Below, piece after piece: positions 13,114 through 60,160 of a DNA stretch of 64,000 nt. The stretch's first letter is position 1. Each line of letters begins with the position of its first letter. Position numbers and translations under genes: made by a program. Source of the DNA: Pegoplata infirma (lineage: Eukaryota > Arthropoda > Insecta > Diptera > Anthomyiidae); NCBI GenBank assembly GCA_963921195.1, contig OY992540.1:24750262-24814261 (forward strand). The letters are read 5' to 3'. The notes beneath the pieces were generated by a model that saw only the letters and a list, made by a program, of their open reading frames with translations, was not told the origin of the DNA and made no database searches.

Positions 13114-14559
13114 TAGTACTTCTTAGACAATAAAGTTTAAGTGAAAACTACAGTGCCAGATTTTTGGATTATGAATTTTACAATTTTTTAAGATGGGTTT
13201 ATTTTATCCCTTTAATCGAGTATTACCTGTTTATACCCTACACTACACTGTGGTACAGGGTATAATGAGTTTGTGCTGATGTTTGTAACTACCCGAAATA
13301 TTGGTTCTAGACCCACCTTTAAGTATACCGATTGACTGAGAATCACTTTTTGAGTCGATTTAGCGATGTCCGTCAGTCTGGCTGTCCATGTAAACGTTGT
13401 AAACACGATACAGGTCAAAATTTTTAACCAATTGACTTAAGCCTCTCTTGGCCCAAGGACGAATCCTGTTGAAATTGGAAAAAATCGGTCCATATTTAGA
13501 CGTAGCCCCCATACAAAGGTCCTCTTTAGTTTTGGCTCAAATGACTCTAATAACCGTATTATAATAGTTATCTTTTTGAAATTCTTGTAGCCCCCATACA
13601 AACCACCTTCCCGATTTTCACATAAATCTCTCAAATTTCATGAAAATTAAAAAAAAAAACAATTAAAATTTTGTTTGTGTATGTTAAACGCGTACTTAAA
13701 TAACCTTATCAAACCTGATAATCATCGGCCCAGTTTTGGACTCAGGCCCCTTGTGAAAATTTCGCCCGATATTTGGTTAAAGCGGTTTATTGTCAACAAA
13801 TAGAAGCCTATTTCACTCAAATTTGATTTGTGAGTGTTTTTTACACTTATTAAAGATTTTACAACATATGAACTAATCGGTCCATGGGACCCATTTTCCG
13901 GGAAACTGTGGTGTTGGGTACACACAAAAAAATAATCGAGGTAACAATGCCTTAGCTGGCATAGGTATTTATTTTTTCTTAGAAATCAAAAATATAAGGT
14001 TTATTACCTTAGCAACATGTAATTTAAATACCTATTGGCTATGCAACTTTTACTATTCAAATTAGGTAGAACTTCGAAAAATGTTTTGACAATAATTTTA
14101 AAATTAATAAAAAATACAAACATCAAAAATTTTTAGAATATTTTTTAAAAGTTATTAAACGCAATAAAAATCAAATCATAAAAATTAACAATTCGCGAAA
14201 AATTAGACCAGCAAGGTAATTAACTTTATTAGCAAATTAATTATGTAAAAATAAATCAATTATTTTACAGTTTTTTAGATAACGTAAACATAAAGAAGTC
14301 TTCAAGAACTAAGGATCCAGTTTTAAGAAGCATCATTTACAAAAAAAAACTCATCAAGAATACTAGAATTAAGAAAAATCCCAGAATCAACCGTATTTCC
14401 ACATAGAAAAAATGCGAAAAAGACATTTTTCTATAAAAAATATTTCAAAATCTGCGAATTTTGTGTAAAAAAAGTCTCAGAATCTGAAAATCTTTCAGTT
14501 TCAGTTCCATAAATGTTTTCTGCAAAAATCATTTGATTCTGAAACAAATCTCAGATTCT

Positions 14560-15345
14560 TATACATTTTTTCTACAGAAAAATTTTCAGATTCCGATACA
14601 TTTTTTCTATAGAAAAATTATCAGATTCTGAGACATTTCTTCTATAGAAAAATTCTCAGATTCTGAGACATTTTTTCTATAGAAAAATTCTCAGATTCTG
14701 AGACATTTTTTCTATAGAAAAGTTCTCAGATTCTGAGACATTTTTTCTATAGAAAAATTCTCAGATTCTGAGACATTTTTTCTATAGAAAAATTCTCAGA
14801 TTTTGAGACATTTTTTCTATAGAAAAATTCTCAGATTCTGAGACATTTTTTCTATAGAAAAATTCTCAGATTCTGAGACATTTTTTCTATAGAAAAATTC
14901 TCAGATTTTGAGACATTTTTTCTATAGAAAAATTCTCAGATTCTGAGACATTTTTTCTATAGAAAAATTCTCAGATTCTGAGACATTTTTTCTATAGAAA
15001 ACTTCTCAGATTCTGAGACATTTTTTCTATAGAAAAATTCTCAGATTCTGAGACATTTTTTCTATAGAAAAATTCTCAGATTCTGAGACATTTTTTTCTA
15101 TAGAAAAATTCTCAGATTCTGAGACATTTTTTCTATAGAAAAATTTTCAGATTCTGAGACATTTTTTCTATAGAAAAATTCTCAGATTCTGAGACATTTT
15201 TTCTATAGAAAAATTTACAGATTCTGAGACATTTTTTCTATAGAAAAATTCTCAGATTCTGAGACATTTTTTCTATAGAAAAATTCTCAGATTCTGAGAC
15301 ATTTTTTCTATAGATAAATTCTCAGATTCTGAGAAATTTTTTCTG
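14560..15345 (+). repeat. 35-bp satellite, left (regular) array
   Basis: About 22 head-to-tail units made of CTATAGAAAAATTCTC, AGATTCTGAGACATTTTTT and joining T's. CTATAG sites are spaced 35 bp apart (for example 14642 and 14677). The units are nearly identical, so the array was homogenised or expanded recently. Each unit holds two small palindromes (TTCTATAGAA and CTCAGATTCTGAG). Confidence 0.9.
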
Positions 15346-16490
15346 AGATTTTTCTATAGCAAAATGATTCAGAATCTGAAATTTTCTATAGAAAAATCTC
15401 TCAGAGAGTTTTTCTATACAAAAATTTATCAGAATCTGAGATTTTTTCTACACAAAAATGTCTTAGAATCTGAGATTTTTTCCATACAAAAATGTCTCAG
15501 AATCTGAAATTTTTTTTATACAAAAATGCCTCAGAATCTGAGATTTTTCTATACAAAAATGTCTCAGAATCTGACATTTTTTCTATAGAAAAATGTCTTA
15601 GAATCTCAATAGAAAAAATCTCTCAATTTCTTTAGAAAATTCAGAGATTTTTTTCAATTTCTATTGAAAAATAGCTCAGATTCTGAAAACTTTTGAAAAG
15701 AAAAAACGTCTCAGAATCTCATTGTTTTTCTATAGAAAAATACTCAGATTTTTAGACATTTTTCCTATAGAAAAATGTCTCTGAGAATCTGACATTTTTT
15801 CTATAGAAAAAAATTTATCAGAATCTGAGATTTTTTCTATTCAAAAATGTCTCAGAATATGAGATTTTTTCTATACAAAAATGAATCAGAATCTGAGATT
15901 TTTCCTATACAAAAATGTCTCAGAATCTGAGATTTTTTCTATACTAAAATTTATCAGAATCTCAGATTTTTTCTATACAAAAATGTCCCAGAATCTGCGA
16001 TTTTTTTCGATACAAAAATGTCTTAGAATCTGAGAGTTTTTGTATTTAAAAATGTCTCAGAATCTAAGATTTTTTTCTATACAAAAATGTCTCAGAATCT
16101 CAGATTTTTTCTATAAAAAAATGTCTCAGAATCTGGGGTTTTTTCTATACAAAAATGTCTCAGAATCTGAGATTTGTTCTATACAAAAATGTCTCAGAAT
16201 CTGAGATTTTTTCTATAGAAAAATTTCTCGTAATCTGGGATTTTTTCTTTAGAAAAATGTCTCAGAATCTCATATTTCTTCTATTGAAAAATGTGTCAGA
16301 ATCCGACACATATGGTAAAATTGTCAGATTCTAACTCTTAGATTCTGAAAATTTTTTCTATAGAAAAATTCTCAAACTCTGAGAGATTTTTTCTACAGAA
16401 AAGTTTTAGAATCTGAGAGTATTTCTATTTAAAAATGTTTAATAACAGAAAAATTTTCAGATTTTGAGTTCTTCATAAAGTTTTGAGACA
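15346..16490 (-). repeat. 35-bp satellite, right (degenerate, inverted) array
   Basis: The same unit in reverse orientation, seen as ATGTCTCAGAATCTGAGA plus TTTTTTCTATAC, with many substitutions and length changes. The two arrays meet at about 15346-15420. Homogeneity differs strongly between the halves. Confidence 0.85.
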
Positions 16491-43079: not shown

Positions 43080-44570
43080 GGGAAAAGGCGCCACAGTGCG
43101 ACGACAATTTTTATTTCCGAACAATTATATGGACTATTACTAACATTAAAAAAAAAATAGCCTAATCGGTCCAGGCGTTCTCAAGTGTTGCAAATTTTAA
43201 GGATATTGAAAAATGTTGGCTTTGAAGTGGTGGAGGACAATAATTATTTCCGTAAAATCCGTACTTGGACTATAATGATCATTAAAGAAAAAAATTACCA
43301 AATCAGGCAAGTCGTTCTCCGATTTTAGATGTATTGAAAAAAGTTGGTGTGGACAATTTTTTTTTTCCGTAAAAACCTTAGTTGTACTATCACGAACGTC
43401 AACAAATTCTACTAATAGCCAAATCGGTCCCGCCGTTCTTCAATTTTAGATATATCGAAATAAAAGTGGGCGTGAACAATTTTTATTTTCGTTTAAACCT
43501 GGCGAGCATTTGAAAAAAAGTTTAGCCAAATCGATCGAGCCGTTCTCCGATGTTAGATATATCAAAAAAGGAGGCGCAAAAGTGGGCGTGATTTATTTAT
43601 TTCTGAAAAAACCTAAGTCAAACATTAAAAAAAAAAAATAAGACGAACATTAAAAAAAATATTTAACAAATCGGTCAGTTCTGAAGGGTCAGTTACCAAC
43701 GAACTACTTTTTATTTATATTTTATTATTCTAGAATCTCAAATAATTAATTATATATCTTATTTTTCTATAGAGCACATTTTATATATTCGAAAAAAAGA
43801 GTGGGTCGACAACTTTTCTTACCGTAAATAACTTATTTAAATTTAACCAACTCGGTCCATCCATTTAAAAGTGGGCGTAGAAATGTAAAATTTTTCTTTC
43901 CGAAAAACCTTAGTTGGACTATGACGAACACTAAAAACAAAATTAGACAAATTGATCCAGCCATTACATGATTTATAATATATATATTGGGAAAAGTGAG
44001 CGTAAATAGGCGTGGACAATTTTTCATTCCATAAAAATCTTTTGTGGACTATAACCAAATAGGTCTAGCAGATATAGTTCTTTCGATACATAGAAAAAAG
44101 TGGGCGTGGGAAATTTTACTATCCGTAAAAACCCTAGTTGAATTATGACGAACATTTTCATCAAAAATTAGCCAAAGTGTGCGTGGTCTATTTCTTTTTT
44201 CGTAAAAACAAAAGTTGGAATATGATGAAAACAAATTAAAAAAAAAATTATTCAAATCGGTCCAGCCATTCTCAGATTTTAGATAAATTGGAAAAGTGGG
44301 TGTAAAAGTGGGCGTGGTCGTTTTTTCTTTCAGTAAAAATTTAAATTGGATTACTACGAACATTTAAATAAAAAAATACCCAAATCGGTGCAGCCATTTT
44401 CCGATTTTAGATAAATCGAAAAAAATGGGCGTAAAAGTAGGCGTGGTCAATTTTTTATTACGTAAAAACCTAAGTTGGACTATAACGAACATTTCAAAAA
44501 AAAAATTGTCCAAATCGGTCCAGCCGTTCTCAACTGATGCCGTTACCAACGAACGACAATTGATTTTTAT
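43080..44570. repeat. About 120-bp tandem repeat, roughly a dozen copies
   Basis: Unit: AAATCGGTCCAGCCGTTCTC, AGATTTTAGATATATCGAAAA, AAGTGGGCGTGGACAA, TTCCGTAAAAACC and GGACTATGACGAACAT. Copies are diverged, with the ones nearest the right end most alike. Minus-strand open frames through here (43833-44549) are repetition artefacts. Confidence 0.8.
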
Positions 44571-46548: not shown

Positions 46549-47046
46549 TACACACAAAAAAAAACTTTGCCAAATTACTAGGAAAAGTCTCGTAATCCCA
46601 TTTTTCATTTTTTTTTGTAATTTTACAATTTTTTTTTGTAATTCTACAAATTTCCAAGATAATTTTACAAAAAAAAAAATCTAGTAAATTCACTAGAAAT
46701 CCTTGAAGGGTGTGAAGTTAGCTTCCCAAAAATAGATATCTTTTTAAAAAATGTTAACATCCTAACAGAGACTGTTATTTAACATTGTGAAGTTAGCTTC
46801 CAAAAATAGATATCTTTTTAGCAGAAATCGAATATAACGAATTGAAATTGGAAAAAAATATCTTATATAGATTATATACCGATATCTGACAACATATCAA
46901 ATGCATATTAACACTTATTTTTCAAACATGAATTAAAAAAAAGTAAATAGTAAGAAACAAATACAAATTAAAATATATACATTTTCAGAACCGTACGTTA
47001 CAGATCGGAGTATATATATATATACCGATATCTGATAAAATTACAA

Positions 47047-50000
47047 ATACATTTAGGGGCTTTTCCCGCACATGGGGTTTGTAGCCCGGGACTAGTAGAT
47101 TCTTAAAAAATATATACCTAAGAAATCGTATGTTTGAGATCGGAGATATATATTTTTTAAAAAAATTAATAATACACTCTGCAAATTATAGGGTTATAAT
47201 GAGCGACCTCTAAAAAAGTCAAAATACATTTAGGGGCTTAACCCGCACATGGGGTTGGTAGCCCGGGACTAGTAGATTCTAAAAAAATATATAGCTAAGA
47301 AATCGTATGTTTGAGATCGGAGATATATATTTTTTAAAAAAATGAATAATACACTCTGCAAATTATAGAGTTATAATGAGCGACCTCTAAAAAAGTCAAA
47401 ATACATTTAGGGGCTTAACCCGCACATGGGGTTGGTAGCCCGGGACTAGTAGATTCTAAAAAAATATATAGCTAAGAAATCGTATGTTTGAGATCGGAGA
47501 TATATATTTTTTAAAAAAATGAATAATACACTCTGCAAATTATAGAGTTATAATGAGCGACCTCAAAAAAAGTCCAAATACATTTAGGGGCTTAACCCGC
47601 ACATGGGGTTTGTAGCCCGGGACTAGTAGATTCTAAAAATATATATAGCTAAGAAATCGTATGTTTGAGATCGGAGATATATATTTTTTAAAGAAATGAA
47701 TAATAACTCTGCAAATTATAGGGTTATAATGAGCGACCTCTAAAAAAGTCAAAATACATTTAGGGGCTTAACCCGCACATGGGGTTGGTAGCCCGGGACT
47801 AGTAGATTCTAAAAAAATATATAGCTAAGAAATCGTATGTTTGAGATCGGAGATATATATTTTTTAAAAAAATGAATAATACACTCTGCAAATTATAGAG
47901 TTATAATGAGCGACCTCAAAAAAAGTCAAAATACATTTAGGGGCTTAACCCGCACATGGGGTTTGTAGCCCGGGACTAGTAGATTCTAAAAAAATATATA
48001 GCTAAGAAATCGTATGTTTGAGATCGGAGATATATATTTTTTAAAAAAATGAATAATAACTCTGCAAATTATAGGGTTATAATGAGCGACCTCTAAAAAA
48101 GTCAAAATACATTTAGGGGCTTAACCCGCACATGGGGTTGGTAGCCCGGGACTAGTAGATTCTAAAAAAATATATAGCTAAGAAATCGTATGTTTGAGAT
48201 CGGAGATATATATTTTTTTAAAAAAATGAATAATACACTCTGCAAATTATAGAGTTATAATGAGCGACCTCAAAAAAAGTCCAAATACATTTAGGGGCTT
48301 AACCCGCACATGGGGTTGGTAGCCCGGGACTAGTAGATTCTAAAAAAATATATAGCTAAGAAATCGTATGTTTGAGATCGGAGATATATATTTTTTAAAA
48401 AAATGAATAATACACTCTGCAAATTATAGAGTTATAATGAGCGACCTCAAAAAAAGTCCAAATACATTTAGGGGCTTAACCCGCACATGGGGTTTGTAGC
48501 CCGGGACTAGTAGATTCTAAAAATATATATAGCTAAGAAATCGTATGTTTGAGATCGGAGATATATATTTTTTAAAAAAATGAATAATAACTCTGCAAAT
48601 TATAGGGTTATAATGAGCGACCTCTAAAAAAGTCAAAATACATTTAGGGGCTTAACCCGCACATGGGGTTGGTAGCCCGGGACTAGTAGATTCTAAAAAA
48701 ATATATAGCTAAGAAATCGTATGTTTGAGATCGGAGATATATATTTTTTAAAAAAAATGAATAATACACTCTGCAAATTATAGAGTTATAATGAGCGACC
48801 TCAAAAAAAGTCAAAATACATTTAGGGGCTTAACCCGCACATGGGGTTTGTAGCCCGGGACTAGTAGATTCTAAAAAAATATATAGCTAAGAAATCGTAT
48901 GTTTGAGATCGGAGATATATATTTTTTAAAAAAAATGAATAATACACTCTGCAAATTATAGAGTTATAATGAGCGACCTCAAAAAAAGTCAAAATACATT
49001 TAGGGGATTAACCCGCACATGGGGTTTGTAGCCCGGGACTAGTAGATTCTAAAAAAATATATAGCTAAGAAATCGTATGTTTGAGATCGGACATATATAT
49101 TTTTTAAAAAAATGAATAATACACTCTGCAAATTATAGAGTTATAATGAGCGACGTCAAAAAAAGTCCAAATACATTTAGGGGCTTAACCCGCACATGGG
49201 GTTTGTAGCCCGGGACTAGTAGATTCTAAAAATATATATAGCTAAGAAATCGTATGTTTGAGATCGGAGATATATATTTTTTAAAAAAATTAATAATAAC
49301 TCTGCAAATTATAGGGTTATAATGAGCGACCTCTAAAAAAGTCAAAATACATTTAGGGGCTTAACCCGCACATGGGGTTGGTAGCCCGGGACTAGTAGAT
49401 TCTAAAAAAATATATAGCTAAGAAATCGTATGTTTGAGATCGGAGATATATATTTTTTAAAAAAAATGAATAATACACTCTGCAAATTATAGAGTTATAA
49501 TGAGCGACCTCAAAAAAAGTCAAAATACATTTAGGGGCTTAACCCGCACATGGGGTTTGTAGCCCGGGACTAGTAGATTCTAAAAAAATATGTAGCTAAG
49601 AAATCGTATGTTTGAGATCGGAGATATATATTTTTTAAAAAAAATGAATAATACACTCTGCAAATTATAGAGTTATAATGAGCGACCTCAAAAAAAGTCA
49701 AAATACATTTAGGGGCTTAACCCGCACATGGGGTTTGTAGCCCGGGACTAGTAGATTCTAAAAAAATATATAGCTAAGAAATCGTATGTTTGAGATCGGA
49801 GATATATATTTTTTAAAAAAAATGAATAATACACTCTGCAAATTATAGAGTTATAATGAGCGACCTCAAAAAAAGTCAAAATACATTTAGGGGCTTAACC
49901 CGCACATGGGGTTTGTAGCCCGGGACTAGTAGATTCTAAAAAAATATATAGCTAAGAAATCGTATGTTTGAGATCGGAGATATATATTTTTTAAAAAAAA

Positions 50001-50583
50001 TGAATAATAACTCTGCAAATTATAGGGTTATAATGAGCGACCTCAAAAAAAGTCCAAATACATTTAGGGGCTTAACCCGCACATGGGGTTGGTAGCCCGG
50101 GACTAGTAGATTCTAAAAAAATATATAGCTAAGAAATCGTATGTTTGAGATCGGAGATATATATTTTTTAAAAAAATGAATAATACACTCTGCAAATTAT
50201 AGAGTTATAATGAGCGACCTCAAAAAAAGTCCAAATACATTTAGGGGCTTAACCCGCACATGGGGTTGGTAGCCCGGGACTAGTAGATTCTAAAAAAATA
50301 TATAGCTAAGAAATCGTATGTTTGAGATCGGAGATATATATTTTTAAAAAAAAATGAATAATACACTCTGCAAATTATAGAGTTATAATGAGCGACCTCA
50401 AAAAAAGTCAAAATACATTTAGGGGATTAACCCGCACATGGGGTTTGTAGCCCGGGACTAGTAGATTCTAAAAAAATATATAGCTAAGAAATCGTATGTT
50501 TGAGATCGGACATATATATTTTTTAAAAAAATGAATAATACACTCTGCAAATTATAGAGTTATAATGAGCGACCTCTAAAATG
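47047..50583 (+). repeat. 177-bp array, left arm, about 20 units
   Basis: CCCGCACAT sites at 47065, 47242, 47419, 47596, 47772 and so on to 50431 give a 176-178-bp period. Unit parts: ATTTAGGGGCTTAACCCGC, GTAGCCCGGGACTAGTAGAT, AAGAAATCGTATGTTTGAGA, GAGTTATAATGAGCGACCTC. Variants alternate: GGTTGGTAGCC or GGTTTGTAGCC, CTCTAAAAAAGTC or CTCAAAAAAAGTCC, ATACACTC or ATAACTC. GGGGATTAACCC plus GGACATAT variants occur at 49007 and 50425, eight units apart. Confidence 0.95.
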
Positions 50584-53500
50584 GGGCTACCAACCCCATG
50601 TGCGGGTTAAGCCCCTAAATGTATTTGGACTTTTTTTGAGGTCGCTCATTATAACTCTATAATTTGCAGAGTGTATTATTCATTTTTTTAAAAAATATAT
50701 ATCTCCGATCTCAAACAAACGATTTCTTAGCTATATATTTTTTTAGAATCTACTAGTCCCGGGCTACCAACCCCATGTGCGGGTTAAGCCCCTAAATGTA
50801 TTTGGACTTTTTTTGAGGTCGCTCATTATAACTCTATAATTTGCAGAGTGTATTATTCATTTTTTAAAAAAATATATATCTCCGATCTCAAACATACGAT
50901 TTCTTAGCTATATATTTTTTTAGAATCTACTAGTCCCGGGCTACCAACCCCATGTGCAGGTTAAGCCCCTAAATGTATTTGGACTTTTTTTGAGGTCGCT
51001 CATTATAACTCTATAATTTGCAGAGTGTATTATTCATTTTTTTAAAAAATATATATCTCCGATCTCAAACATACGATTTCTTAGCTATATATTTTTTTAG
51101 AATCTACTAGTCCCGGGCTACCAACCCCATGTGCGGGTTAAGCCCCTAAATGTATTTTGACTTTTTTAGAGGTCGCTCATTATAACCCTATAATTTGCAG
51201 AGTTATTATTCATTTTTTTAAAAAATATATATCTCCGATCTCAAACATACGATTTCTTAGCTATATATTTTTTTAGAATCTACTAGTCCCGGGCTACAAA
51301 CCCCATGTGCGGGTTAAGCCCCTAAATGTATTTTGACTTTTTTTGAGGTCGCTCATTATAACTCTATAATTTGCAGAGTGTATTATTCATTTTTTTTAAA
51401 AAATATATATCTCCGATCTCAAACATACGATTTCTTAGCTATATATTTTTTTAGAATCTACTAGTCCCGGGCTACCAACCCCATGTGCGGGTTAAGCCCC
51501 TAAATGTATTTTGACTTTTTTAGATGTCGCTCATTATAACCCTATAATTTGCAGAGTTATTATTCATTTTTTTAAAAAATATATATCTCCGATCTCAAAC
51601 ATACGATTTCTTAGCTATATATTTTTTTAGAATCTACTAGTCCCGGGCTACAAACCCCATGTGCGGGTTAAGCCCCTAAATGTATTTTGACTTTTTTTGA
51701 GGTCGCTCATTATAACTCTATAATTTGCAGAGTGTATTATTCATTTTTTTTAAAAAATATATATCTCCGATCTCAAACATACGATTTCTTAGCTATATAT
51801 TTTTTTAGAATCTACTAGTCCCGGGCTACCAACCCCATGTGCGGGTTAAGCCCCTAAATGTATTTTGACTTTTTTAGAGGTCGCTCATTATAACCCTATA
51901 ATTTGCAGAGTGTATTATTAATTTTTATAAAAATATATATCTCCGATCGCAAACATACGATTTCTTACCTATATATTTTTTTAGAATCTACTAGTCCCGA
52001 GCTACAAACCCCATGTGCGGGTTAAGCCCCTAAATGTATTTTGACTTTTTTTGAGGTCGCTCATTATAACTCTATAATTTGCAGAGTGTATTATTCATTT
52101 TTTAAAAAAATATATATCTCCGATCTCAAACATACGATTTCTTAGCTATATATTTTTTAGAATCTACTAGTCCCGGGCTACCAACCCCATGTGCAGGTTA
52201 AGCCCCTAAATGTATTTTGACTTTTTTAGAGGTCGCTCATTATAACTCAATAATTTGCAGAGTGTATTATTCATTTTTTTAAAAAATATATATCTCCGAT
52301 CTCAAACATACGATTTCTTAGCTATATATTTTTTTAGAATCTACTAGTCCCGGGCTACAAACCCCATGTGCGGGTTAAGCCCCTAAATGTATTTGGACTT
52401 TTTTTGACGTCGCTCATTATAACTCTATAATTTGCAGAGTGTATTATTCATTTTTTTAAAAAATATATATGTCCGATCTCAAACATACGATTTCTTAGCT
52501 ATATATTTTTTTAGAATCTACTAGTCCCGGGATACAAACCCCATGTGCGGGTTAAGCCCCTAAATGTATTTGGACTTTTTTTGAGGTCGCTCATTATAAC
52601 TCTATAATTTGCAGAGTGTATTATTCATTTTTTTAAAAAATATATATCTCCGATCTCAAACATACGATTTCTTAGCTATATATTTTTTTAGAATCTACTA
52701 GTCCCGGGCTACCAACCCCATGTGCGGGTTAAGCCCCTAAATGTATTTTGACTTTTTTAGAGGTCGCTCATTACAACCCTATAATTTGCAGAGTTATTAT
52801 TCATTTTTTTAAAAAATATATATCTCCGATCTCAAACATACGATTTCTTAGCTATATATTTTTTTAGAATCTACTAGTGCCGGGCTACAAACCCCATGTG
52901 CGGGTTAAGCCCCTAAATGTATTTGGACTTTTTTTGAGGTCGCTCATTATAACTCTATAATTTGCAGAGTGTATTATTCATTTTTTTAAAAAATATATAT
53001 GTCCGATCTCAAACATACGATTTCTTAGCTATATATTTTTTTAGAATCTACTAGTCCCGGGATACAAACCCCATGTGCGGGTTAAGCCCCTAAATGTATT
53101 TGGACTTTTTTTGAGGTCGCTCATTATAACTCTATAGTTTGCAGAGTGTATTATTCATTTTTTTAAAAAATATATATCTCCGATCTCAAACATACGATTT
53201 CTTAGCTATATATTTTTTTAGAATCTATTAGTCCCGGGCTACCAACCCCATGTGCGGGTTAAGCCCCTAAATGTATTTTGACTTTTTTAGAGGTCGCTCA
53301 TTACAACCCTATAATTTGCAGAGTTATTATTCATTTTTTTAAAAAATATATATCTCCGATCTCAAACATACGATTTCTTAGCTATATATTTTTTTAGAAT
53401 CTACTAGTCCCGGGCTACAAACCCCATGTGCGGGTTAAGCCCCTAAATGTATTTTGACTTTTTTTGAGGTCGCTCATTATAACTCTATAATTTGCAGAGT

Positions 53501-54877
53501 GTATTATTCATTTTTTTTAAAAAATATATATCTCCGATCTCAAACATACGATTTCTTAGCTATATATTTTTTTAGAATCTACTAGTCCCGGGCTACCAAC
53601 CCCATGTGCGGGTTAAGCCCCTAAATGTATTTTGACTTTTTTAGAGGTCGCTCATTATAACCCTATAATTTGCAGAGTTATTATTCATTTTTTTAAAAAA
53701 TATATATCTCCGATCTCAAACATACGATTTCTTAGCTATATATATTTTTAGAATCTACTAGTCCCGGGCTACAAACCCCATGTGCGGGTTAAGCCCCTAA
53801 ATGTATTTGGACTTTTTTTGAGGTCGCTCATTATAACTCTATAATTTGCAGAGTGTATTATTCATTTTTTTAAAAAATATATATCTCCGATCTCAAACAT
53901 ACGATTTCTTAGCTATATATTTTTTTAGAATCTACTAGTCCCGGGCTACCAACCCCATGTGCGGGTTAAGCCCCTAAATGTATTTGGACTTTTTTTGAGG
54001 TCGCTCATTATAACTCTATAATTTGCAGAGTGTATTATTCATTTTTTTAAAAAAATATATATCTCCGATCTCAAACATACGATTTCTTAGCTATATATTT
54101 TTTTAGAATCTACTAGTCCCGGGCTACCAACCCCATGTGCGGGTTAAGCCCCTAAATGTATTTTGACTTTTTTAGAGGTCGCTCATTATAACCCTATAAT
54201 TTGCAGAGTTATTATTCATTTTTTTAAAAAATATATATCTCCGATCTCAAACATACGATTTCTTAGCTATATATTTTTTTAGAATCTACTAGTCCCGGGC
54301 TACAAACCCCATGTGCGGGTTAAGCCCCTAAATGTATTTTGACTTTTTTTGAGGTCGCTCATTATAACTCTATAATTTGCAGAGTGTATTATTCATTTTT
54401 TTAAAAAATATATATCTCCGATCTCAAACATACGATTTCTTAGCTATATATTTTTTTAGAATCTACTAGTCCCGGGCTACCAACCCCATGTGCGGGTTAA
54501 GCCCCTAAATGTATTTTGACTTTTTTAGAGGTCGCTCATTATAACTCTATAATTTGCAGAGTGTATTATTCATTTTTTTAAAAAATATATATCTCCGATC
54601 TCAAACATACGATTTCTTAGCTATATATTTTTTTAGAATCTACTAGTCCCGGGCTACCAACCCCATGTGCGGGTTAAGCCCCTAAATGTATTTTGACTTT
54701 TTTAGAGGTCGCTCATTATAACCCTATAATTTGCAGAGTGTATTATTAATTTTTTTAAAAAATATATATCTCCGATCTCAAACATACGATTTCTTAGGTA
54801 TATATTTTTTAAGAATCTACTAGTCCCGGGCTACAAACCCCATGTGCGGGAAAAGCCCCTAAATGTATTTGTAATTT
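50584..54877 (-). repeat. 177-bp array, right arm, about 25 units inverted
   Basis: The same unit in reverse: ATCTACTAGTCCCGGGCTAC, GTGCGGGTTAAGCCCCTAAA, GAGGTCGCTCATTATAACTC. The same variant classes recur on this arm, including ATATGTCCGATC at about 52470 and 52998 next to GGGATACAAACCCC at 52530 and 53060 (three units apart). The outermost unit (GGGAAAAGCCCCTAAATG, 54846) has the same odd AAAAG as the outermost left unit (CTTTTCCC, 47060), so the arms share their ends. Confidence 0.95.
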
Positions 54878-54900
54878 TATCAGATATCGGTATATATATA

Positions 54901-55681
54901 TTAGACTGCCCAGAAAAAAACAAAGTTGTTATTTTCTTGGGGGATACCTGCGAATTTTGTTCCTTTTTGTGCAAAAAAATTTCGGTTTTTTTTTGGGATT
55001 TTTAAAATAATATCTAGAGGTCGCGATCTCGCGTTTTATAACGATTTATTTTTTTTGAGTTTTTTATTATTTTAAATTGTTAAATATGATTAATATGATA
55101 AAATATTAATAATTTCAGACAAAAAAAAAATAAATTAAAAATTAAATATCGCTCATTCCATGAGATGTCTCCCAGCATCTAATCAAATGTTCTTTAATTT
55201 ATTTGAAATTTCGCACACAGGTACACTATGGAGCAATTAAAATAAATTCGTTTTTAGTTTCGCGAAAATCCACGAATTCGCGAACGCGAATATATTCGCG
55301 AATTCACGGATTTTCTCGGAACTAACAACTGATTTATTTTAATAGCTTCATAGTGTTCATGTGTGCAAAATTTCAAATAAATTAAGGAACATTTGATTAG
55401 ATGCTGGGAGACATCTCATGGAATGAGCGATATTTAATTTTTAATTTAATTTTTTTTTGGTCTGAAATTATTAATATTTTATCATATTAATCATATTTAA
55501 CAATTTAAAATAATAAAAAACTAAAAAAAAAATAAATCGTTATAAAACGCGAGATCGCGACCTCTAGATATTATTTTAAAAATCCCAAAAAAAAACCGAA
55601 ATTTTTTTGCACAAAAAGGAACAAAATTTGCAGGTATCCCCCAAGAAAATAAAAACTTCGCTTTTTTTCTGGGCAGTCTAA
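54901..55681. mobile_element. 0.78-kb palindromic element in the giant foldback's right arm
   Basis: TTAGACTGCCCAGAAAAAAA at 54901 mirrors TTTTTTTCTGGGCAGTCTAA ending at 55681, with arms matching almost throughout and meeting near CGCGAATATATTCGCG (55285-55300). It splits a TA run that is whole on the left arm (47010-47025), so the target is TA. The interior has GCGATCTCGCGTTTTATAAC and AGATGTCTCCCAGCATC. No coding capacity. Confidence 0.9.
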
Positions 55682-56339
55682 TATATATATACTCCGATCT
55701 GTAACGTACGGTTCTGAAAATGTATATATTTTAATTTGTATTTGTTTCTTACTATTTACTTTTTTTTAATTCATGTTTGAAAAATAAGTGTTAATATGCA
55801 TTTGATATGTTGTCAGATATCGGTATATAATCTATATATGATATTTTTTTCCAATTTCAATTCGTTATATTCGATTTCTGCTAAAAAGATATCTATTTTT
55901 GGAAGCTAACTTCACAATGTTAAATAACAGTCTCTGTTAGGATGTTAACATTTTTTAAAAAGATATCTATTTTTGGGAAGCTAACTTCACACCCTTAAAT
56001 CCTTGTAATTTCAATTGCGCCGAAAAACTGTAAATTTACAATTTTGTTGGTAAAAAGCTTGTAAAATTACAAAATTATTGGTAAAAAGCATTTAAAATTA
56101 CTAGGAATTCTCGTAACATAGGAGGAAGCAAAAAATCTAGTAAAATTAGGAAACCTACTTGTAAATTTTATCGTGTCAAAAAATTTGTAAATTTTCAATT
56201 TTATTGGTAAAACTCTGTAAAAAGCTTGTAAAATTAAAAGGAATTTTTATTAAATAGGAGGTAGCAAACAAAAAAAAGTAACAAGTTTTTCTTGTAATTT
56301 TACAAGGTTTTTTTTTTTGAGTGTAGGATTACCGAAAGT

Positions 56340-59395: not shown

Positions 59396-59476
59396 TTTTT
59401 AAAACAAATGAAGCATTTTTATGTCAAAAGAAGTTCAGACTTTGAGTAAATTTGATAAAAAAAAATATTAAACTTT

Positions 59477-60160
59477 TCATAAAAGGTACTTTTTATAAAA
59501 GGTACTTTTTATAAAAGGTACTTTTTATAAAAGGTATTTTTTATAAAAGGTGCTTTTTATAAAAGGTACTTTTTATAAAAGGTGCTTTTTATAAAAGGTA
59601 CTTTTTATAAAAGGTACTTTTTATAAAAGGTACTTTTTATAAAAGGTACTTTTTATAAAAGGTACTTCTTATAAAAGGTACTTTTTATAAAAGGTACTTT
59701 TTATAAAAGGTACTTTTTATAAAAGGAACTTTTTATAAAAGGTACTTTTTATAAAAGGTACTTTTTATAAAAGGTACTTTTTATAAAAGGTACTTTTTAT
59801 AAAAGGTACTTTTTATAAAAGGTACTTTTTATAAAAGGTACTTTTTATAAAAGGTACTTTTTATAAAAGGTACTTTTTATAAAAGGTACTTTTTATAAAA
59901 GGTACTTTTTATAAAAGGTACTTTTTATAAAAGGTTCTTTTTATAAAAGGTACTTTTTATAAAAGGTACTTTTTATAAAAGGTACTTTTTATAGAAGGTA
60001 CTTTTTATAAGAGGTACTTTTTATAAAAGGTACTTTTTATAAAAGGTACTTTTTATAAAAGGTACTTTTTATAAAAGGTACTTTTTATAAAAGGTACTTT
60101 TTATAAAAGGTACTTTTTATAAAAGGTACTTTTTATAAAAGGTACTTTTTATAAAAGGTT
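59477..60160 (+). repeat. 16-bp satellite, about 43 units
   Basis: Unit ATAAAAGGTACTTTTT, almost invariant; rare variants are GGTGCTT, GGTTCTT, GGAACTT, ATAGAAGG. The unit is near-palindromic. The next element contains TTATAAAAAGTACC at 60195-60208, the reverse complement of GGTACTTTTTATAA, so the array may have arisen from that element. Confidence 0.95.

Follow-up and report, generated by a model that had tools for sequence, protein, structure and literature searches.

The stretch of DNA analysed here (the window) comprises 64,000 nucleotides of the fly Pegoplata infirma (G000:C5:24750262-24814261, with a G+C content of 28.6%, in a host assembly of 1.38 Gb and 813 contigs that was searched as a whole), and its positions 46706-55996 are occupied by a palindromic element of 9.3 kb. 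The tips of the element are exact 20-bp inverted repeats, AAGGGTGTGAAGTTAGCTTC from 46706 and its complement from 55977, directly outside of which stands an exact 9-bp target-site duplication (TSD), AAATCCTTG. An earlier note on this DNA, made from the letters alone, had described a foldback with an intact 9-bp duplication, and the description is borne out, as is its estimate of about 20 plus 25 head-to-head units, of which 20.0 and 24.2 are counted (Table 1). The two arrays, thought there to meet with no spacer, are separated by 2 bp, and the mirrored subterminal parts of 0.34 kb do exist as a 339-bp terminal domain on both sides, although the right one is split by a nested element of ~0.78 kb that had gone unmentioned. 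Sequence comparison confirms a genuine foldback structure and not a product of chance, which is excluded by length alone.

Copies of the element in the host genome

When the genome was searched with the first 345 bp of the element, much as the earlier note had advised for the subterminal part, at least 41 matches were obtained. The 20 stretches retrieved contain 15 more two-ended elements of the same kind (1.7 to 12.8 kb), one sister element of 10.1 kb, and two one-sided remnants; a further one-sided place, C1:211282194, lies outside the retrieved set. This family, hereafter family A, amounts to at least 16 two-ended copies, window included, which are designated below by labels such as L021. 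A perfect 9-bp TSD flanks 12 of the 16, each time with a different sequence, and is absent from L014, L017, and L024, in each of which one tip is damaged, and from L023, whose flanks mirror each other. A sister family B of seven elements bears the same 18-base tips, and six of these also have a perfect 9-bp TSD, the seventh (C4_24k, 23.7 kb, on C4) having an 8-bp match. Perfect duplications are thus found in 18 of 23 copies of both families, two of the 18 being A-runs ending in T, and the tip pattern, with at most one mismatch, has 46 matches in the genome against 2 for a reversed control.

The arrays lie no more than 60 bp apart in 13 of the 16 family-A copies, other DNA separating them in L018/L019 (8.2 kb), L020 (1.4 kb), and L024 (5.3 kb), and the arms measure 1.3-5.8 kb (12 copies, nested inserts counted). 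In the structural sense these are foldbacks, with long inverted tandem-repeat arms inside terminal inverted repeats (TIRs) and multiple copies with TSDs, and the earlier view of a very large foldback from a multi-copy family with 9-bp duplications holds for A and B alike. The tips and duplications support movement of the whole element by a transposase acting on the tips, a presumed enzyme that would cut there and insert the entire palindrome.

Near-identical inverted arms are also the classic form of an assembly artefact, in which missed-adapter or misjoined reads create the inverted arrangement. Such an origin appears extremely improbable, since exact 9-bp TSDs are set in flanks that otherwise differ, nested inserts are present in one arm only, the arms are unequal in their numbers of units, 15 further two-ended copies exist, and mirrored flanks are seen in one of 17 copies tested. 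That copy, L023 (1.7 kb; G000:C2:160458860-160461087, pieces L046, L023, and L047), has host flanks that mirror each other over 266 bp with one mismatch and then diverge abruptly.

Likeness of the arms within copies

The variant units mark each arm like a barcode and, therefore, arm copying can be read and tested copy by copy. A unit-order score was compared with 200 shuffles in 14 copies, four with too few units being left out, and within L021, L013, L015, and the window it reaches 92.3, 91.2, 56.7, and 39.7, respectively, values attained by none of the 200 shuffles, whereas the best of 612 arm pairs from different copies (window and L027) scores 16.5. In the window, outer right-arm units R01-R08 correspond to left-arm units L01, L02, and L05-L10 with the order kept, and the mirrored part contains one mismatch in 1,767 aligned bp, a further 109 bp that are exact, and one indel of 353 bp, that is, two units. 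Over the outer eight units, the two arms of the same copy have their highest mean identity at shift 0 (97.3%, 10 copies), and between copies, some irregular arms being excluded, there is no such peak (95.3%, against 95.5% at shift -1). Moreover, the whole of the shorter arm is mirrored with no gap of more than 20 bp in L015 (3 mismatches in 4,201), L013 (8 in 3,151), and L021 (21 in 4,140). The divergence of 264 inter-copy arm pairs has a minimum of 0.91% and a median of 2.20%, and the arms of L012 (0.59%, two gaps) and L010 (0.74%, with gaps) also fall below that minimum. Nested inserts occupy mirrored spots in both arms of L015 (~1.65 kb) and L021 (~0.2 kb), and the two inserts agree at 100% over 1,666 bp in the former and at 99.6% over 234 bp in the latter. 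Unit order shows in four copies, two of which also carry mirrored inserts, that the arms have been made alike within the copy. Copying within each copy is likely, since order is kept within copies, little is shared between them, inserts are mirrored, and the junctions between arrays differ, as described below.

Several observations weigh against this reading. Unit order is significant in only four of the 14 copies tested, L009 being borderline (9 of 200 shuffles reach its score) and nine copies not going beyond their shuffles, and the arm divergence of the window and six other copies is not below the inter-copy minimum. In the window the outer part alone is mirrored, and an end-to-end alignment of its two arms with gaps allowed gives a difference of 1.11%, a likeness that the closest pairs of arms from different copies also attain; the left arm also aligns with L027 over six outer units, four of them identical. 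Identical terminal domains are frequent among the copies of family A and, therefore, do not help to separate copying within copies from copying between them. Five pairs of junctions (window/L009 among them) are within 14 bp in phase, against 4.2 by chance, and closeness at chance level leaves room for a shared old centre in single pairs. Finally, the frequency of overlaps at junctions (8 of 13) is close to that of random blunt joins (0.47), and microhomology was rejected as a sign of the repair route for want of a clear excess over such joins.

Among the 13 copies whose junction can be read, the phase is different every time, no pair agreeing within 2 bp on both sides, and inserted bases are present at 5 of the 13. 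On balance, it seems probable that the window holds a TSD-flanked, non-coding giant foldback whose transposase, likely of the Rehavkus/Mutator type, comes from elsewhere, and whose arms are likely alike through copying of one onto the other. In such copying, a break or a cut end inside the array would fold back, or the other arm would serve as the repair template, synthesis outward to the tip would yield two near-identical arms and a new centre, and later expansion and contraction of the array would blur the mirror. Foldback priming at breaks leads to inverted duplications in yeast (PMC10622511, in excerpt), and the route of copying here would be either foldback-primed synthesis or conversion in place.

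If conversion in place were the whole account, ordinary arm-to-arm gene conversion would act in resident copies, the palindrome would be inherited, and no element would be born from one arm. This would explain the mirrored unit order and the mirrored nested inserts, and the ends of C330 and C4_16k (both of family B) contain mixed tracts that look like conversion; the authors of work on the foldback Galileo have also proposed that one terminal repeat is repaired from the other (PMC3573991, in excerpt). The L023 mirror extends over 266 bp of host DNA, which suggests an event in a copy already resident there, although it is open to other readings, since the L023 flank itself looks tandemly repeated. 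Separate reasons would, however, be needed for 13 of 13 differing junctions and for the mirrors of L013, L015, and L021 that fill the shorter arm, and conversion alone appears rather doubtful. Copying that creates a new centre is favoured by these same two observations, namely that every junction differs and that three mirrors fill the whole shorter arm. In its fullest form it would make the element a self-mirroring transposon, of which one arm is inherited and each palindrome is rebuilt by fold-back at a chance point of the array and copying to the tip, a proposal that is put forward tentatively, as plausible and short of probable. If it is true, centre and unit order would be particular to each copy, with the order present twice, and half of a broken element could regain a complete mobile form. 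Copying of one arm onto the other would allow a single arm to regenerate a whole palindromic element, and would bear on how foldback elements keep two long, repetitive arms nearly identical.

The nested element of the window (~777-781 bp) lies in a TA run of the right terminal domain, is present in the right arm only, and has arms of its own that are 93.5% alike. A 98.5% relative is found at L014 3552-4329, both copies being nested in family-A elements. At about position 312 of the terminal domain, the same TA run holds a palindromic element of ~2 kb (its ends near GGGGCATTCCATGCC) in each of L009, L010, and L011. These inserts are 90-98% alike with best matches in differing orientations, and a single ancestral insertion was rejected; differing orientations at the same TA-rich spot make independent insertions likelier. 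Since the nested element of the window sits at nearly that position, the TA run looks like an insertion hot spot.

Table 1. Features of the palindromic element in the window (window coordinates).
Feature	Position	Strand	Basis	Partner
Left TSD copy, AAATCCTTG	46697..46705	.	Sequence comparison	
Left terminal (flanking) domain, 339 bp	46706..47044	+	Sequence comparison	
Left array, 20.0 units of 177 bp, 97% matches	47045..50581	+		
Head-to-head array junction, 2-bp spacer, phases 169 and 41	50581..50584	.		
Right array, 24.2 units of 177 bp, 96% matches, opposed to left	50584..54870	-		
Right terminal domain, inner piece, 31 bp	54871..54901	-		
Nested TA-flanked inverted-repeat element, ends AGACTGCCCAG	54901..55681	.		
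Right terminal domain, outer piece, 316 bp, 99.7% to left domain	55681..55996	-		
Right TSD copy, AAATCCTTG	55997..56005	.		
Mirrored part of left arm	46706..48934	+		53334..55996
Mirrored part of right arm, nested element included	53334..55996	-		46706..48934

Elsewhere in the window, positions 14541-16311 form an array of ~51 units of 35 bp, the unit being partly self-complementary, and a relative of ~1.4 kb lies within element L018/L019, so that this array is a dispersed repeat. Positions 59472-60159 hold 43 copies of a near-palindromic 16-bp unit (ACTTTTTATAAAAGGT, 97% matches), and positions 44174-44532 hold 2.8 copies of a 129-bp unit that contains GGGCGTGGTC.

Satellite units, family B, and coding remnants

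The 177-bp unit has 498 matches genome-wide, a lower bound for assembled sequence only, and the ~150 listed lie, by inspection, all within tip-bearing elements; 476 unit matches longer than 60 bp are counted in the retrieved elements and the window. The counts of 498 and 476 were made at different thresholds and the former is a lower bound, so that some units may lie elsewhere. As far as seen, among the matches listed, the unit is confined to mobile elements, and plain satellite blocks without the TIR, which the earlier note had named as evidence that would speak against it, do not appear among these ~150 of 498. Viral contigs scanned with a 38-base unit pattern gave 0 matches. Short stretches of each family's terminal domain have a counterpart in the unit of that family (31 bp at 84% in family A and ~115 bp at 70% in family B), a likeness expected if the units arose from the terminal domain, and part of the first ~41 bp of the left terminal domain is repeated at domain position 81-115. 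The satellite could instead have come first, a 177-bp block having been captured between transposon ends, or an element having inserted into the satellite, and spread as a passenger. The array does make up most of the element and is satellite-like, its unit order varying between copies, and families A and B share their tips while their units are nearly unrelated; nevertheless, the location of the listed unit matches in tip-bearing elements, the 476 counted in the retrieved copies and the window, and terminal domains that look as if units had grown from them make this history improbable. With a satellite confined to elements, among the matches listed, and a sister family that has the same tips but a different unit of nearly equal length, the origin of satellites within transposons can be put to a direct test.

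Family B elements measure 10.1 to 25.1 kb, and their 178-bp unit shares only ~23 bp, partly a T/A run, with that of family A, the two units appearing nearly unrelated in sequence. The units of 177 and 178 bp are, for all that, nearly equal in length, which might reflect selection on length, for example through nucleosome spacing. In the 20.3-kb copy (L033-L035), opposed arrays of ~30 and ~35 units enclose a middle of ~7 kb, most of which (L034) contains no frame of 110 codons. This insertion, on C3, and the 25.1-kb insertion on C1 have a common middle, 96-99% alike over ~4.6 kb, and their homologous arms agree best at shift 0 (96.5% over 18 units, no other shift exceeding 94.7%), while non-homologous arms have no peak at shift 0. 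This comparison indicates that a satellite array of ~3 kb passes between sites with the family-B element. That a satellite array becomes mobile as one unit is thus indicated most directly in family B, whose unit register is kept between C1 and C3. The unit order of family A is for the most part particular to each copy and, therefore, its arrays are re-sorted or built anew on insertion or later. Elements of 10-25 kb with dozens of units would seed satellite-like DNA at many chromosome sites in single steps.

A tree of the family-B end domains has two clades (100/99, the bootstrap being not fully settled), and five elements of 15.8 to 25.1 kb have one end from each, although two of these five, C330 and C4_16k, contain mixed tracts, whereas both ends are of one kind in the two smallest (14.0 and 10.1 kb), with 1 difference in 396 and 0 in 400. 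From these ends and three arms of large elements read at length, it looks as if large B elements hold two distinct arms and small ones are mirrored.

Scans of the window against Rfam (gathering threshold) and for tRNAs gave no match, and seven window open reading frames (ORFs) have only sub-threshold Pfam matches, one of them to a reverse-transcriptase zinc region (E 0.013). The question whether some copy holds a transposase in its middle is answered in part by L024, whose 5.3 kb between the arrays contain coding remnants on the minus strand, with proteins encoded at L024 1531-2082 and 5748-6206. About 200 bp from the left array lies a Ulp1 protease that ends in a cysteine finger and matches Peptidase_C48 above the cut-off (E 1.9e-6), and no more than 0.5 kb from the right array there is a frame of 153 aa that has no family. 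No catalytic transposase domain was found in the five L024 pieces scanned. P0001, a homologue of the L024 protein (45% identity over 96%), likewise has Ulp1 and then the finger, whose CxxC...CxxC pattern in L024 and P0001 matches Pfam C1_1 below the cut-off (E 0.053 and 0.0075) and no PHD model. For the 153-aa ORF no homologous proteins were found, and NCBIfam gave matches far below the cut-off for two L024 ORFs. The proposed link to Mutator-like transposases fared worse, since PF10551 (MULE) matches 12 places in the genome, none inside a family-A or family-B element, in a search that would miss a parent absent from the assembly or one that has diverged too far to match the model, and a MULE transposase was rejected as partner. 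This result and the lack of a catalytic domain in the L024 pieces both weigh against the probable reading given above. Nevertheless, the L024 remnants resemble the interior of a parent element, pointing to one of the Rehavkus/Mutator type, and by description Rehavkus would fit best; the element is not assigned to Rehavkus, since the catalytic domain was not found and the comparison is by description only.

Comparison with known foldback elements

Foldback (FB) elements of Drosophila have long inverted arms with tandem repeats and 9-bp duplications, with repeats much shorter and arms smaller than here. Elements of this kind are already known, since Tetris, Galileo copy 112 with its nested transposable elements (TEs), and Rehavkus-1_TC are foldbacks with satellite-like arms; the comparisons that follow draw on excerpts of the papers cited. 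In the open literature searched, no multi-copy family was found with 13 of its 16 two-ended members built as head-to-head satellite arrays, no sister family whose elements reach 25 kb and have a different unit, and no unit-order evidence for within-copy arm copying.

Rehavkus is described as having a 9-bp TSD, a PHD finger, and terminal repeats 26-400 bp in length, with a minisatellite preceding the 3' one (PMC6446971), and Rehavkus-1_TC is a 9.5-kb element with a 164-bp satellite unit in its inverted termini (PMC10218199). The 9-bp TSD is also present here, as is a terminal domain (339 bp) followed by an array (177 bp) on both sides. Rehavkus has arthropod hosts and a PHD-finger protein, and L024 has a cysteine finger behind a Ulp1 domain, which is not mentioned in the text of PMC6446971 or PMC13359780. 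TCsat23 arrays have mostly 5 and 8 units, whereas the window element has 20 and 24 and no coding middle.

The terminal repeats of Tm1 from root-knot nematodes are composite and foldback-like, with tandem units that vary, and the element has 9-bp TSDs and, in some copies, a Phantom-type transposase; its units are of ~14 bp and an example element measures 1,080 bp (PMC3169594). It resembles the present elements in the variable tandem units of its foldback termini and in the TSD, and differs in unit length (~14 against 177 bp).

Tetris, a non-coding foldback of Drosophila virilis with satellite-like amplification, has a flanking domain and ~220-bp tandem repeats in inverted arms, 8-10 bp TSDs, and a repeat unit of which a short stretch also occurs in the flanking domain (PMC4079207). 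By description, both the order of flanking domain and tandem repeats in inverted arms and the stretch shared between unit and flanking domain are alike here. However, Tetris arms are of up to 1.7 kb and accompany a middle domain, whereas those of family A reach 1.3-5.8 kb, with arrays meeting directly in 13 of 16 copies, and Tetris repeats also form contigs without the flanking domain, whereas the 177-bp unit, among the matches listed, occurs within elements only.

Galileo copy 112 of Drosophila willistoni, at 9,021 bp with arms of 4.2 and 4.7 kb, tandem ~140-bp repeats, and identical TSDs, is similar in size to the window element, and one-arm TE insertions that became part of both arms have been described for Galileo (PMC4168063). 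Galileo belongs to the P superfamily and has 7-8 bp TSDs, whereas the duplications here are of 9 bp in 18 of 23 copies and of 8 bp in one. Moreover, tandem repeats are described in a single D. willistoni copy of Galileo, copy 112, whereas 13 of the 16 two-ended copies of family A are head-to-head arrays, and in family A the order of the units shows copying within the copy.

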